Source: Chloroflexota bacterium
GTDB taxonomy: Bacteria > Chloroflexota > Limnocylindria > P2-11E
DNA length: 48,958 nucleotides
Assembly (NCBI GenBank): GCA_028876375.1
Contig: JAGWSB010000008.1
Location: 1-48,958, forward strand
Direction of reading: 5' to 3'
The notes below the pieces were generated by a model. It was not told the DNA's origin and made no database searches. It saw nothing but the letters and a program-made list of their open reading frames with translations. This document shows positions 8,631 to 26,384 of this stretch, piece by piece (positions within the stretch are counted from its first letter, which is position 1; each line of letters begins with the position of its first letter). The translations under genes and the position numbers were made by a program.

Positions 8631-9115
8631 TTCCCACGCAGCGCGGCGAAGGTGAGCCATCCGCCGCCGGCGGCGATGAGGACGTCGCCCACGCTGTAGG
8701 CGGTCCGGACGACCGGGAACGGGATCACGTCGGACAGCGGGACCAGCCGGCTCGCCGACGTGAGCGCCGTGTGGAGACGGTCCGTCGGCATGGCTCCGCC
8801 GACGCCGGCGACTACGGCCGCGGAGATCGGCATCGCCCCGTTCACCGCGACGACGAGGAGATTGAGCGCCGCACCGAGAGCGATGAGCCACGCGCCTGCG
8901 AGACCGCGGTTCGCGAGGGCGACGGCGACAATGCCGGCGAACGCGACGACGTACGTCGCGGCGGCCAGGTCCCCCGTGAGCCCCGCGACGGAACGAAGGA
9001 CGATGGCCACCGCCAGGACGGGCCACCAGCGGACGTAGAGCTCCCCGAGCCTTGAGAAGCGACCGCCCGTCGCGAGCCCCGCGACGAGGCCGACGACGAC
9101 CGCGCTAGCCAGCAT
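8627..9115 (-). CDS. DUF5317-like membrane protein
   Basis: 162 residues with about five membrane helices. The pattern is a glycine-rich first helix, then GGRFSRLGELYVRWWPVLAV, a central NLLVVAVNGAMPIS motif, and a last helix after VIPFPVVRTAYSVGDVLIA. This arrangement (Arg-Trp-Trp, Asn-Gly-x-Met-Pro, Ser-x-Gly-Asp) is what I recall of DUF5317 proteins, whose function is unknown. It starts ten bases inside the end of the HD-GYP gene and overlaps the MFS gene by four bases, so all three are translationally coupled. Confidence 0.65.
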   Translation of the reverse strand: MLASAVVVGLVAGLATGGRFSRLGELYVRWWPVLAVAIVLRSVAGLTGDLAAATYVVAFAGIVAVALANRGLAGAWLIALGAALNLLVVAVNGAMPISAAVVAGVGGAMPTDRLHTALTSASRLVPLSDVIPFPVVRTAYSVGDVLIAAGGGWLTFAALRGK

Positions 9116-10472
9116 GCGCGTCGCTGAGCGTGGGCTTCTGCGCCAGGCGTTGACGCAGCTCAGCGAGCGTCTCGTACTCGATGACCGGCAGGTCGCTGAC
9201 CTCGAAGGCGGCGGCGCCGCGCTTCTTGAGCAGCGTGTCGAGCGCGCGCACGACCTTCGGGTCGAACTGGATCCCCTTGTACTTGTTCAGCTGCTCGATC
9301 GCGCGCTCGTGCCCGATCGCCCTCCGGTAGATGCGGTCGGAGGTCATCGCCTCGTACGCATCGGAGACGAGGATGATGCGCGCGCCGACGGGGATCTCAT
9401 CGCCCTTCAGCCCGTTCGGATACCCCGTGCCGTCGTAGTTCTCGTGATGCGCGAGGACGATGGGCGCCAGCGGCCGCAGCGCGGACGACGGCTCGAGGAT
9501 GGACGCCCCGTAGATCGGATGCCGACGCATCAGCTCGTTCTCATCGGGCTCGAGCCGCGTCGGCTTCATGAGGATCCGGTCCTCGACGCCGATCTTGCCG
9601 ATGTCGTGGAGCAAGGCCGCGAGCTCGATCTGCTCGATGATCGGCTCGGACAAGCCCATCTCGCGAGCGACCGCGCCGGCGATGCGCGAGACGCGGTCGG
9701 CGTGACCGCGGGTGAACCCGTCCTTCGCGTCGATGGCCTGCGACAGCGCGCTGACGGATCCGAAGAAGAGGTCGCGCGTCTCGGCGTACTTGCTGAAGGA
9801 GTACCGCGCGAGCAGGAGCGGGACCATGAACAATCCGCCGGCCCACAGCCCGACCTTGCCAGCGACCTCGGCCATCAGCCAGCCCATCGGTACGAGTGCG
9901 ATGAGTCCGGTCCAGACCTGACGGAAGCTTGCGGTCCAGACGCGCTGGAACTCGATCCCGGTCCGAACGCTCGCCGCGGCCGAGGCGAGGATCTGGTTGA
10001 CCAGGCTGTACGCGAGGCCCGCCGCGAACAGCTGCGGGAGGAGCTCGATGGGATCGGCCCCGCTCGCGCCGACGCCCGTCCACTCGATCGCGTACCACCC
10101 CGCGAGGACGGACAGGACGAATGTCGCGCGGTTGTAGAGCGTCCCATACAGCGGCAGCTCGCCACGGATGTCGCGCAGCTGCAGGGTCCCGATCGCGGCG
10201 ATCCAGAGCGGCGCGAACGGGCGCGGAAGGGCGGCGTCGAACAGCGCCGCGATCAGCGGCGCGGAGTTCACCGACACGTTCACGCCGCGCGGCAGGTACA
10301 CCGGCTGACCGCTGGCGACCAGTGTCACGACGATCCAGAAGATCACGCGGCCAACGTCGATCGACGGCGGTAGCGGCACCGAATAGAAGACGAGGAGCGC
10401 CGCCGTGAGCACCGTCACGGCGAGGACGAGCACGCGCAAGCGAAGAGGCTGCTGGAATAGGAGCACCGACAT
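9105..10472 (-). CDS. Membrane-bound HD-GYP domain c-di-GMP phosphodiesterase
   Basis: 455 residues from ATG 10472. The first about 220 residues hold several membrane helices in a MASE-like sensor region. The cytoplasmic HD-GYP domain follows: GHADRVSRIAGAVA, LLHDIGKIGVEDRIL with the HD pair, HPIYGASIL, and HHENYDGTGYPNGLKGDEIP with the GYP motif. RIILVSDAYEAMTSDR is also conserved. These enzymes hydrolyse cyclic di-GMP and so affect motility, pili and biofilm. The frame stays open upstream to 10835, but that part spans a terminator hairpin and a small gene. TATCCT ten bases before ATG 10472 supports this start. Confidence 0.9.
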   Translation of the reverse strand: MSVLLFQQPLRLRVLVLAVTVLTAALLVFYSVPLPPSIDVGRVIFWIVVTLVASGQPVYLPRGVNVSVNSAPLIAALFDAALPRPFAPLWIAAIGTLQLRDIRGELPLYGTLYNRATFVLSVLAGWYAIEWTGVGASGADPIELLPQLFAAGLAYSLVNQILASAAASVRTGIEFQRVWTASFRQVWTGLIALVPMGWLMAEVAGKVGLWAGGLFMVPLLLARYSFSKYAETRDLFFGSVSALSQAIDAKDGFTRGHADRVSRIAGAVAREMGLSEPIIEQIELAALLHDIGKIGVEDRILMKPTRLEPDENELMRRHPIYGASILEPSSALRPLAPIVLAHHENYDGTGYPNGLKGDEIPVGARIILVSDAYEAMTSDRIYRRAIGHERAIEQLNKYKGIQFDPKVVRALDTLLKKRGAAAFEVSDLPVIEYETLAELRQRLAQKPTLSDAHAG

Positions 10473-10482
10473 GATCTCGCGG

Positions 10483-10488
10483 AGGATA
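10483..10488 (-). promoter_or_regulatory. Candidate -10 box for the HD-GYP operon
   Basis: TATCCT on the minus strand, ten bases before ATG 10472 and downstream of the terminator at 10523-10548. This placement suggests the HD-GYP operon is transcribed independently of the small peptide gene. Confidence 0.4.
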
Positions 10489-10522
10489 TGTCCCGACCCG
10501 ACGTCCTCCGCCGGAAAACGAA

Positions 10523-10548
10523 GAGAGGATCCCTCTCGGGATCCTCTC
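10523..10548 (-). terminator. Rho-independent terminator of the 25-residue peptide gene
   Basis: A perfect 11-base-pair stem (GAGAGGATCCC and GGGATCCTCTC, plus-strand reading) with a four-base loop. On the minus strand it is followed by TTCGTTTTCC, a T-rich tail. It lies 28 bases after the stop of the small peptide and before the HD-GYP promoter. Confidence 0.75.
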
Positions 10549-10576
10549 AAGAGATCGATGCGTTGTGCGGTGCGGA

Positions 10577-10654
10577 CTAGAAACCCTGACCGCCAGCGCC
10601 ACCGCCGAGAACGAGAGCCGCGAGCGCGACGAGAACAGCGACGATGCGACGCAT
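10577..10654 (-). CDS. 25-residue hydrophobic peptide of unknown function
   Basis: A tiny gene: Met-Arg-Arg, then a hydrophobic run IVAVLVALAALVL, then a glycine-rich end GGGAGGQGF before TAG. It looks like a signal peptide or membrane segment with almost nothing after it. Support: GGAGGGG Shine-Dalgarno six bases before ATG 10654; a candidate promoter at 10720-10749; a strong terminator directly after the stop. The unit sits between darA and the HD-GYP operon. It could be a small membrane peptide acting on a neighbour such as the membrane-bound HD-GYP protein, a secreted peptide, or a leader peptide. None of these is shown. Confidence 0.6.
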   Translation of the reverse strand: MRRIVAVLVALAALVLGGGAGGQGF

Positions 10655-10660
10655 CTGCTA

Positions 10661-10667
10661 CCCCTCC
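10661..10667 (-). promoter_or_regulatory. Strong ribosome binding site of the 25-residue peptide
   Basis: GGAGGGG on the minus strand, six bases before ATG 10654. It is one of the strongest ribosome binding sites in the window, while many larger genes here have none. Confidence 0.65.
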
Positions 10668-10719
10668 ACTGAGTTCGCCCCGGCCCTCCAGCACTGGTCG
10701 ACCGGTCAGCGTGCGGCCA

Positions 10720-10749
10720 AGGGTACAGCGCACAGATACTTCATGGAAA
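10720..10749 (-). promoter_or_regulatory. Candidate promoter of the 25-residue peptide
   Basis: Minus strand: TTTCCA (10744-10749), 18-base spacer, TACCCT (10720-10725). It lies in the locally AT-richer stretch of the 251-base gap downstream of darA. The predicted leader is about 58 bases. Confidence 0.35.
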
Positions 10750-10905
10750 CCCCTAAACCTTGCGCGGTACGGAATAGACACCTTGCCATCCGGAACGGAA
10801 TGCTGACACCGCCCCGATCCCTGGGCCGAGTGCACACGCCCGCAGCGGCGCCGGCCACCGGCGGGGACAGCAGCTGGGGGCGGCTAGCGCATGGGCGGCG
10901 CTGGG

Positions 10906-11235
10906 CTAGAGACGCTCGTGGCGCGCGACGTCGATCACAAAGACGGTCGCGCCGCCGAAGGTGACCTCCACCGGATAGGGCATGTAGAACTCACCGGGTT
11001 CCATGAGCGGCGGCATGGGGTTGATGAACTGGCTGCGGGAGTGGCAGGTCTTCCGGATGACGGCGAGGACGTCGTCCACCTGATCGTCCTCGGCTCCGAC
11101 CATGACCGTCGCGTTCGCCTGCTTGAGGAAGCCGCCCGTCGACTGCAGGCGCGTGACGCGATGGTCCTTGTCGGTGAGCGCGTCGACGAGCGCCCCGGCG
11201 TCCTCCGCGTGCACGACGGCGATCACGAGCTTCAC
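10906..11235 (-). CDS. darA: Cyclic di-AMP receptor protein DarA (PstA/YaaQ)
   Basis: 109 residues, standard length for the PII-like DarA family. The start KLVIAVVHAEDAGALVDAL, the motif RLQSTGGFLKQANATVMVG and DDQVDDVLAVI match YaaQ/DarA throughout. The protein trimerises and binds cyclic di-AMP between subunits; its downstream partner is not well defined. The diadenylate cyclase is not in this window. It follows tmk on the same strand, as in Firmicutes (tmk-yaaQ). GTG 11235 is preceded by TACCAT eight bases upstream, so an internal leaderless promoter is likely. Confidence 0.93.
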   Translation of the reverse strand: MKLVIAVVHAEDAGALVDALTDKDHRVTRLQSTGGFLKQANATVMVGAEDDQVDDVLAVIRKTCHSRSQFINPMPPLMEPGEFYMPYPVEVTFGGATVFVIDVARHERL

Positions 11236-26296: not shown

Positions 26297-26312
26297 CGAC
26301 CTCGCGACCCTG

Positions 26313-26384
26313 TACCCCCAAGGCGAGTCGAACGCCTGTCTACAGCTCCGGAGGCTGTCGCTCTATCCACTGAGCTATGGGGGC
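26313..26384 (-). tRNA. tRNA-Arg (anticodon CCG)
   Basis: A 72-base cloverleaf on the minus strand: acceptor GCCCCCA/TGGGGGT (first pair G-U), D arm GCTC...GAGC, anticodon stem ACAGC/GCTGT with loop CTCCGGA, T arm AGGCG-TTCGACT-CGCCT. Anticodon CCG reads CGG codons. CCA is not encoded. GACAAT (26395-26400, minus strand) could be its -10. It lies on the strand opposite the flanking ATPase and tatC genes. Confidence 0.93.

Follow-up and report, generated by a model that had tools for sequence, protein, structure and literature searches.

A conserved 25-residue peptide gene beside a membrane HD-GYP gene in Limnocylindria and its possible role in c-di-GMP signaling

The peptide gene and its signals

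The window, that is, the whole stretch of 48,958 nucleotides analyzed here, carries a gene for a 25-residue hydrophobic peptide immediately before a gene for a membrane HD-GYP protein. From the comparison with relatives, it was concluded with high confidence that this is a genuine gene with a functional link to the adjacent HD-GYP gene. Beyond the single locus described by an initial annotation of this DNA, the comparison pointed to a class-wide module comprising a c-di-GMP-II riboswitch, a second peptide, and an S-component-like sensor.

The peptide gene, assigned to a family termed B, was located at 10577-10654 on the minus strand, the strand of all features of this locus, and reads from an ATG start through 25 residues (MRRIVAVLVALAALVLGGGAGGQGF) to a stop codon. 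The peptide is built of an n-region MRR, a hydrophobic core, the residues GGA, and the end GGQGF. The latter (10580-10594) is a putative tail, which presumed cleavage at the signal-peptidase-like site GGA would release. The Shine-Dalgarno sequence GGAGGGG (10661-10667) is placed six bases 5' of the ATG, and strong sequences of this type or of the GAAGGGAGG type were also found in relatives of the peptide gene. On the other side, an intrinsic terminator was located at 10513-10548, with a perfect stem of 11 pairs (10548-10523), a loop of 4, and the T-rich tail TTCGTTTTCC. Three terminator-like sites were found in 1.7 kb against 0.7 expected from shuffles, and the other two have stems of 5 pairs. 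Hairpins were also present at the equivalent place in relatives, with differing stem sequences. Thus, the small frame, strong ribosome site, and 11-bp terminator that had been noted directly before a membrane HD-GYP gene were all confirmed.

The promoter-like elements that had also been noted stood only in part. In the sigma-70 sense they did not hold, as a consensus scan of the window locus gave 0 promoter sites. A conserved element, GTTTC-N6-GTATC (10735-10750), was found approximately 85 nt 5' of the start codon; it has no sigma-70 match, and this or a similar motif occurred at equal distance in most copies from the window's family (f1). Judged from the sequences, the element is likely a start signal, either a promoter or a regulator site. 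Between the stop codon and the terminator, a further conserved 3' UTR element was observed around CCTCTAGAGG, a perfect 10-base palindrome, and it was seen in several genera (loci L027, L028, L029, L031, L033, L035, L047, L039, and L040). As for RNA structure, Rfam searching of positions 10300-11000 of the window returned chance-level matches only and none to RF01786, the predicted fold of the peptide transcript was not unusual (z -0.99), and RNAalifold gave no consensus structure for the 5' UTR. Pfam accepted nothing for the peptide, LPAM_1 being below the cut-off at E 0.14, and no paralog of the peptide gene was found in the window's own genome.

In GC-rich DNA, frames of 25 codons occur at chance level, and it is conservation that sets this one apart. 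Using a profile made from three peptides, 23 strong places (E < 1e-5) were found in 28 genomes of the window's family. Of these, 22 were 25-codon frames with a ribosome site and, where the sequence extends, a 3' hairpin. The 23rd (L048, 1501-1620 on the plus strand, genome G026) was an orphan of 39 residues with no HD-GYP gene after it, and was not counted among the 22 f1 copies; it keeps part of the conserved 5' region. A diverged member (L126) came from another family of the same order (f2). Across the 22 f1 frames and L126, the first, second, and third positions of the codons had mismatch rates of 0.27, 0.15, and 0.60, respectively, with pS of 0.63 and pN of 0.22, and the pattern was reversed in the two shifted frames. 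The core L-x-A-L-V-L-G-G-G-A-G was almost invariant among the f1 peptides. Three genomes (G009, G014, and G017) carried two peptide genes. Accordingly, the earlier proposal of a self-contained gene missed by annotation was strongly supported by these 23 frames, the frame, ribosome site, and terminator all being conserved in the relatives searched. As the genomes compared were mostly drafts, absences reported here are soft; family and genus labels follow the assignments of the search tool.

The HD-GYP partner and its sensor domain

The HD-GYP gene (9105-10472, minus strand) starts with an ATG at 10472 and encodes 455 residues. Its product belongs to the HD_5 type, scoring 130.8 bits with Pfam HD_5 against a cut-off of 27.2, and it contains both the HD and GYP motifs (LLHDIGKIG and HHENYDGTGYP); c-di-GMP phosphodiesterase activity is therefore predicted. 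Upstream of the peptide gene, Pfam identified CdAMP_rec, a DarA-like cyclic-di-AMP receptor (10906-11235, minus strand), and tmk also lies upstream.

The pairing was evaluated from both sides. Among f1 loci whose sequence extends 447 nt or more past the peptide, an HD-GYP gene of the window type followed in 17 of 18 cases, with products 64-68% identical to that of the window and one cut copy at 48%. In the remaining five of the 22 f1 copies, the contigs end 74 to 447 bases past the peptide, four being too short to judge. In the fifth (L039 in G016), the conserved start of HD-GYP runs into unrelated sequence, and this genome yielded no HD-GYP gene of the window type. Where G014 and G017 carry two peptide genes, each has its own HD-GYP gene. 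The link also persists at loci without tmk and the DarA-like gene upstream. Conversely, the HD-GYP membrane domain was found at 21 places in 19 of the 29 genomes of the order; three places were cut by contig ends (G001, G012, and G021), and the peptide was present at all of the other 18.

Shortly 5' of the HD-GYP start, a TATCCT box (10483-10488, minus strand) was recognized as the probable promoter of this gene itself. A box of the form TATCCT, TATTCT, TATGCT, or TATCGT was found near the HD-GYP start in the f1 and f2 copies that reach that far. It precedes a GTG or ATG start giving 451-455 residues in 16 of the 19 HD-GYP genes listed, a count that includes an f5 member without the box (L128), the other three genes being broken or cut. 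From these positions, the HD-GYP gene in f1 and f2 likely has its own leaderless transcript. As the peptide gene has its own terminator and upstream element and the HD-GYP gene has a promoter-like box, the two appear to be separate transcription units. The HD-GYP orthologs mostly start with GTG rather than ATG and may thus be mis-annotated.

The N-terminal residues 1-225 of the HD-GYP protein (9798-10472, minus strand) were assigned to a MASE9-like sensor domain using a structure model and Pfam. The model was of good confidence, with a pLDDT of 88. On comparison with solved structures, S-components of ECF transporters, NikM, and CbiM chains filled the top 21 rows with Z of 9.8-14.4, the best being 4m5b (191 residues aligned at 3.5 A), while the next unrelated row, Lnt, had a Z of 6.5. 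Sequence identity to these structures was 6-15%, a sequence search of the PDB with the sensor domain gave no match, and Foldseek alone was weak (best E 0.095). By its model, the sensor domain has the ECF S-component fold, a fold that does not in itself imply function; here it is fused to a phosphodiesterase rather than belonging to a transporter. With MASE9 (PF20972) and E allowed up to 1, matches were obtained for 13 of 18 N-terminal domains (best 1.9e-8), whereas the window's own sensor scored 11.6 bits, below the gathering score of 24.3. S-components, the substrate-binding parts of ECF vitamin transporters, bind small ligands from outside. The modeled fold suggests a view of MASE9 domains as ligand-binding relatives of S-components that have become sensors.

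Peptide B, peptide A, and the riboswitch across the class

Within the class, 98 of 177 genomes contained the HD-GYP membrane domain. Outside the f1/f2 HD-GYP set, 73 loci were examined, namely, 13 and a further 60 chosen from additional matches; G048:C270, G034:C83, G068:C107, and several weak matches, for example, were left out, and L241 and L242 are weak paralogs in f1 genomes. Peptide B was called when a hydrophobic frame of 26-36 residues had a run of small residues near its end. B was present at 64 of the 73 loci, 63 by this rule and L181 by eye, with relatives of 28-32 residues. The nine loci without B comprised seven weaker paralogs (L237-L243), a contig edge (L208), and one real absence (L186, genome G091). 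When the rule was widened to 24-36 residues, only two matches were obtained in a 188 kb control strand, and both were true members. The typical f3 peptide B is MKARLFRLAVTISTVAAMALAGGASLKGY, and the f5 peptides have 32 residues ending in KGW, RGW, or RGL. In 400 genomes of the phylum, the B profile gave no convincing match outside the class, the other matches having E of at least 1e-4 and falling mostly within long frames. Two observations concern the loci without B. In G091, a riboswitch and a peptide A (MKPDSSIKPW) precede the HD-GYP gene, and L241 and L242 follow a gene ending in tandem repeats of the type W-E/D-G/S-V/I-S/T-W.

At 61 of the 73 loci, the transcript begins with a match to the c-di-GMP-II riboswitch RF01786 (13/13, 19/20, 17/20, and 12/20 in four sets). 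Matches were accepted at E up to 1 in the 13-locus set, where the worst found was 8e-5, and up to 0.01 elsewhere; many, though not all, exceeded the gathering score. In contrast to the sister families, no match was found at any of the 19 f1/f2 loci or at that of the window, and in the class-wide RF01786 search all 101 positive genomes belonged to f3 and f5. All 18 leaders examined have a terminator-like hairpin whose 5' arm starts inside the 3' end of the aptamer. In Clostridioides difficile, class II switches are reported to be ON switches (PMC6366702), and by analogy the riboswitch here is likely an ON switch too.

Between the switch and B, a second frame of 8-10 codons was found, designated peptide A, which ends in [KR]-small-[WFY] (e.g., MARKVIKGW and VHPDQSLKGY). 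By this motif rule, which gave no match in the 188 kb control strand, A was present at 55 of 63 B loci, having exactly 10 residues at 45, and there was none at the other 8. A is absent from f1. It was also missing from 18 of 19 other c-di-GMP-II loci, the exception (L302) being a second but incomplete copy of the module in which A was recognized by eye. Thus, genes as small as 10 and 25 codons, sizes that tend to escape annotation, can be kept across a class. As a separate observation, c-di-GMP appears to control a large regulon of surface proteins through these other leaders, and no description of it was found; f3 and f5 genomes contain up to 12 c-di-GMP-II-like leaders each, many before long secreted-looking frames (among L301-L320).

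The C-terminal geometry of B was compared in 83 distinct peptides, from which the L203 peptide, with its contig edge and odd N-terminus, was excluded. Ala immediately precedes the last five residues in 82 of 83, residue -3 is Gly, Ala, or Ser in all 83, and residue -2 is Gly in 81. The N-terminus is positive in 82, and a single uncharged stretch of 16-22 residues is present in all 83. Small residues at -3 and -1 are the rule of thumb for signal peptidase. By this rule, the peptides are signal-peptide-like, with small residues at -3 and -1 before a tail of constant five-residue length. Judged from composition, they are also compatible with a single membrane helix, and their co-conservation with HD-GYP is strict. 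The conservation of the core exceeds what a simple signal peptide needs and fits an intact helix touching a partner.

Tail sequences covary between A and B. The last four residues were identical in 12 of 55 pairs, compared with 2.1 expected when shuffled, and none of 20,000 shuffles reached 12. Since one genus dominates the signal, shuffling was repeated within genera, where 6.0 identical pairs were expected (p 0.00025). The 12 pairs come from genera g12, g17, g34, and g46, nine of them from g34, and many genera share the tail type only. Synonymous differences were present at 12 of 48 matched codons of the A and B tails; therefore, the agreement is, at least in part, at the peptide level. The f1 tail is without the Lys or Arg found in sister-family tails, and as f1 also has neither riboswitch nor A, its tail may work differently.

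A candidate signaling circuit and competing explanations

On the proposed mechanism, B would insert with its N-terminus inside and place its tail at the outer face of the membrane, where it would either be released by cleavage behind the invariant Ala or remain anchored. The tail would then bind the S-component-fold sensor of the adjacent HD-GYP protein and adjust c-di-GMP breakdown. In the sister families, c-di-GMP would switch on the peptide mRNA via the class II riboswitch, closing a feedback loop; more c-di-GMP would give more A and B, and the feedback would be negative if B activates the enzyme. Cytosolic A, having the same tail type, may provide a copy of the tail inside the cell or act as a competitor. 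In the window's lineage, a different conserved upstream element would replace the riboswitch and A. It is the presence of an S-component-like pocket next to a secreted-looking pentapeptide that leads to the reading in which the tail acts on the sensor. From the sequences, the chance that the tail or peptide acts on the HD-GYP sensor in this way is put at a little under even. The complete circuit is offered tentatively and is, as a whole, rather doubtful: a c-di-GMP riboswitch would drive production of a cytosolic and a surface micropeptide that share their pentapeptide tail, the tail would be the ligand of a MASE9-like phosphodiesterase sensor, and the window's lineage would have kept surface peptide and receptor with another start signal in place of the riboswitch.

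Several other explanations were weighed against the tail acting as a ligand. The whole peptide may instead remain uncut as a small membrane subunit, in which one glycine-faced helix packs on the HD-GYP sensor and tunes its activity without cleavage or secretion. The core and glycine positions, invariant beyond signal-peptide needs, the positive N-terminus and uncharged stretch, and the strict pairing with one membrane enzyme all agree with such a subunit; however, it leaves unexplained why -1 is nearly always Ala and -3 small, why the tail keeps its length of five residues, and why a covarying tail is found on another, soluble peptide (A, 8-10 residues), and it is regarded as unlikely though a serious contender. 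Both the "regulatory membrane peptide" and the "secreted signal" of the initial annotation thus survive, as the two leading readings. Alternatively, the released or displayed tail may act on an import system, a PDZ-type protease, or another cell, HD-GYP being adjacent only through a shared c-di-GMP circuit. Such a target would suit the separate transcription units, the retention of riboswitch and A without B in G091, and the orphan copy in G026, but it does not account for the one-to-one pairing with this HD-GYP subtype or for the weaker paralogs that are without the peptide, and it was judged improbable.

The order of small frame, terminator, and gene would also be expected of a leader-peptide attenuator, in which translation of the frame governs read-through into HD-GYP. 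Against this, the HD-GYP gene of f1 and f2 has its own conserved box close to its start codon, the terminator stems change between relatives, conservation acts at the amino-acid level while synonymous codons are free, and the peptide accompanies HD-GYP even where the layout differs; attenuation was accordingly rejected as very improbable. Even less probable is a membrane toxin of the type I kind. Although small size, hydrophobicity, and a strong ribosome site would suit a toxin, the peptide keeps to a single partner gene throughout a class and has an invariant core and tail geometry, so that the toxin reading was rejected and the "toxin-like" part of the earlier proposal gained no support. Finally, 25-codon frames are common by chance, and the terminator could close the darA transcript, so the frame might merely lie in the untranslated region ending a tmk-darA operon. 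The pS/pN values and the codon-position pattern refute this, as does the persistence of frame and ribosome site where tmk-darA is absent, and the probability left to it is negligible.

Among known systems, the precursors of Firmicutes short hydrophobic pheromones and Phr pentapeptides are similar in being very short, with a signal-peptide-like part and an active C-terminal tail of about five residues that varies between lineages. Their receptors are cytosolic regulators, whereas the neighbor here is a membrane c-di-GMP phosphodiesterase. To our knowledge, these systems have no counterpart of the second, cytosolic peptide with the same tail or of the c-di-GMP riboswitch. MgrB with PhoQ and CydX with cytochrome bd resemble the present pair in having one short membrane helix and a fixed partner enzyme, but they are longer and are without a signal-peptidase-like site and a constant five-residue tail. 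We know of no small membrane regulator of HD-GYP enzymes. Unlike the known c-di-GMP-II riboswitches (RF01786), that of the sister families precedes micropeptide genes beside a phosphodiesterase gene. In literature searches, c-di-GMP-II, riboswitch, and Chloroflexi were not found together, nor was Limnocylindria with cyclic di-GMP; for HD-GYP with peptide pheromone, the matches appeared unrelated, and for MASE9 an unrelated match and no report of a ligand were obtained.

Of the MASE-type sensors of c-di-GMP enzymes, MASE1 is placed by a review among domains with no discernible physiological purpose (PMC8846402). The present module offers a genetically encoded candidate ligand for one such MASE-type sensor, and its natural tail variants (SLKGF, SVKGW, TLKPY, GVTGF, etc.) make specificity directly testable. 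If the proposed action of the tail were true, it would constitute a peptide channel into second-messenger signaling. If the circuit as a whole were true, the internal messenger level would become an outside peptide signal, read back by the cell itself and possibly from its neighbors.

Some minor observations were made on the surroundings. The DarA-like neighbor is conserved in part of the order, in several genera, though not throughout, and the nearest named relatives of its protein are from Chloroflexi metagenome assemblies. The sole tRNA found in the window was tRNA-Arg (ccg), at 26312-26384 on the minus strand. With the DarA-like gene next to the peptide and HD-GYP pair, functions related to two second messengers are adjacent at this locus.
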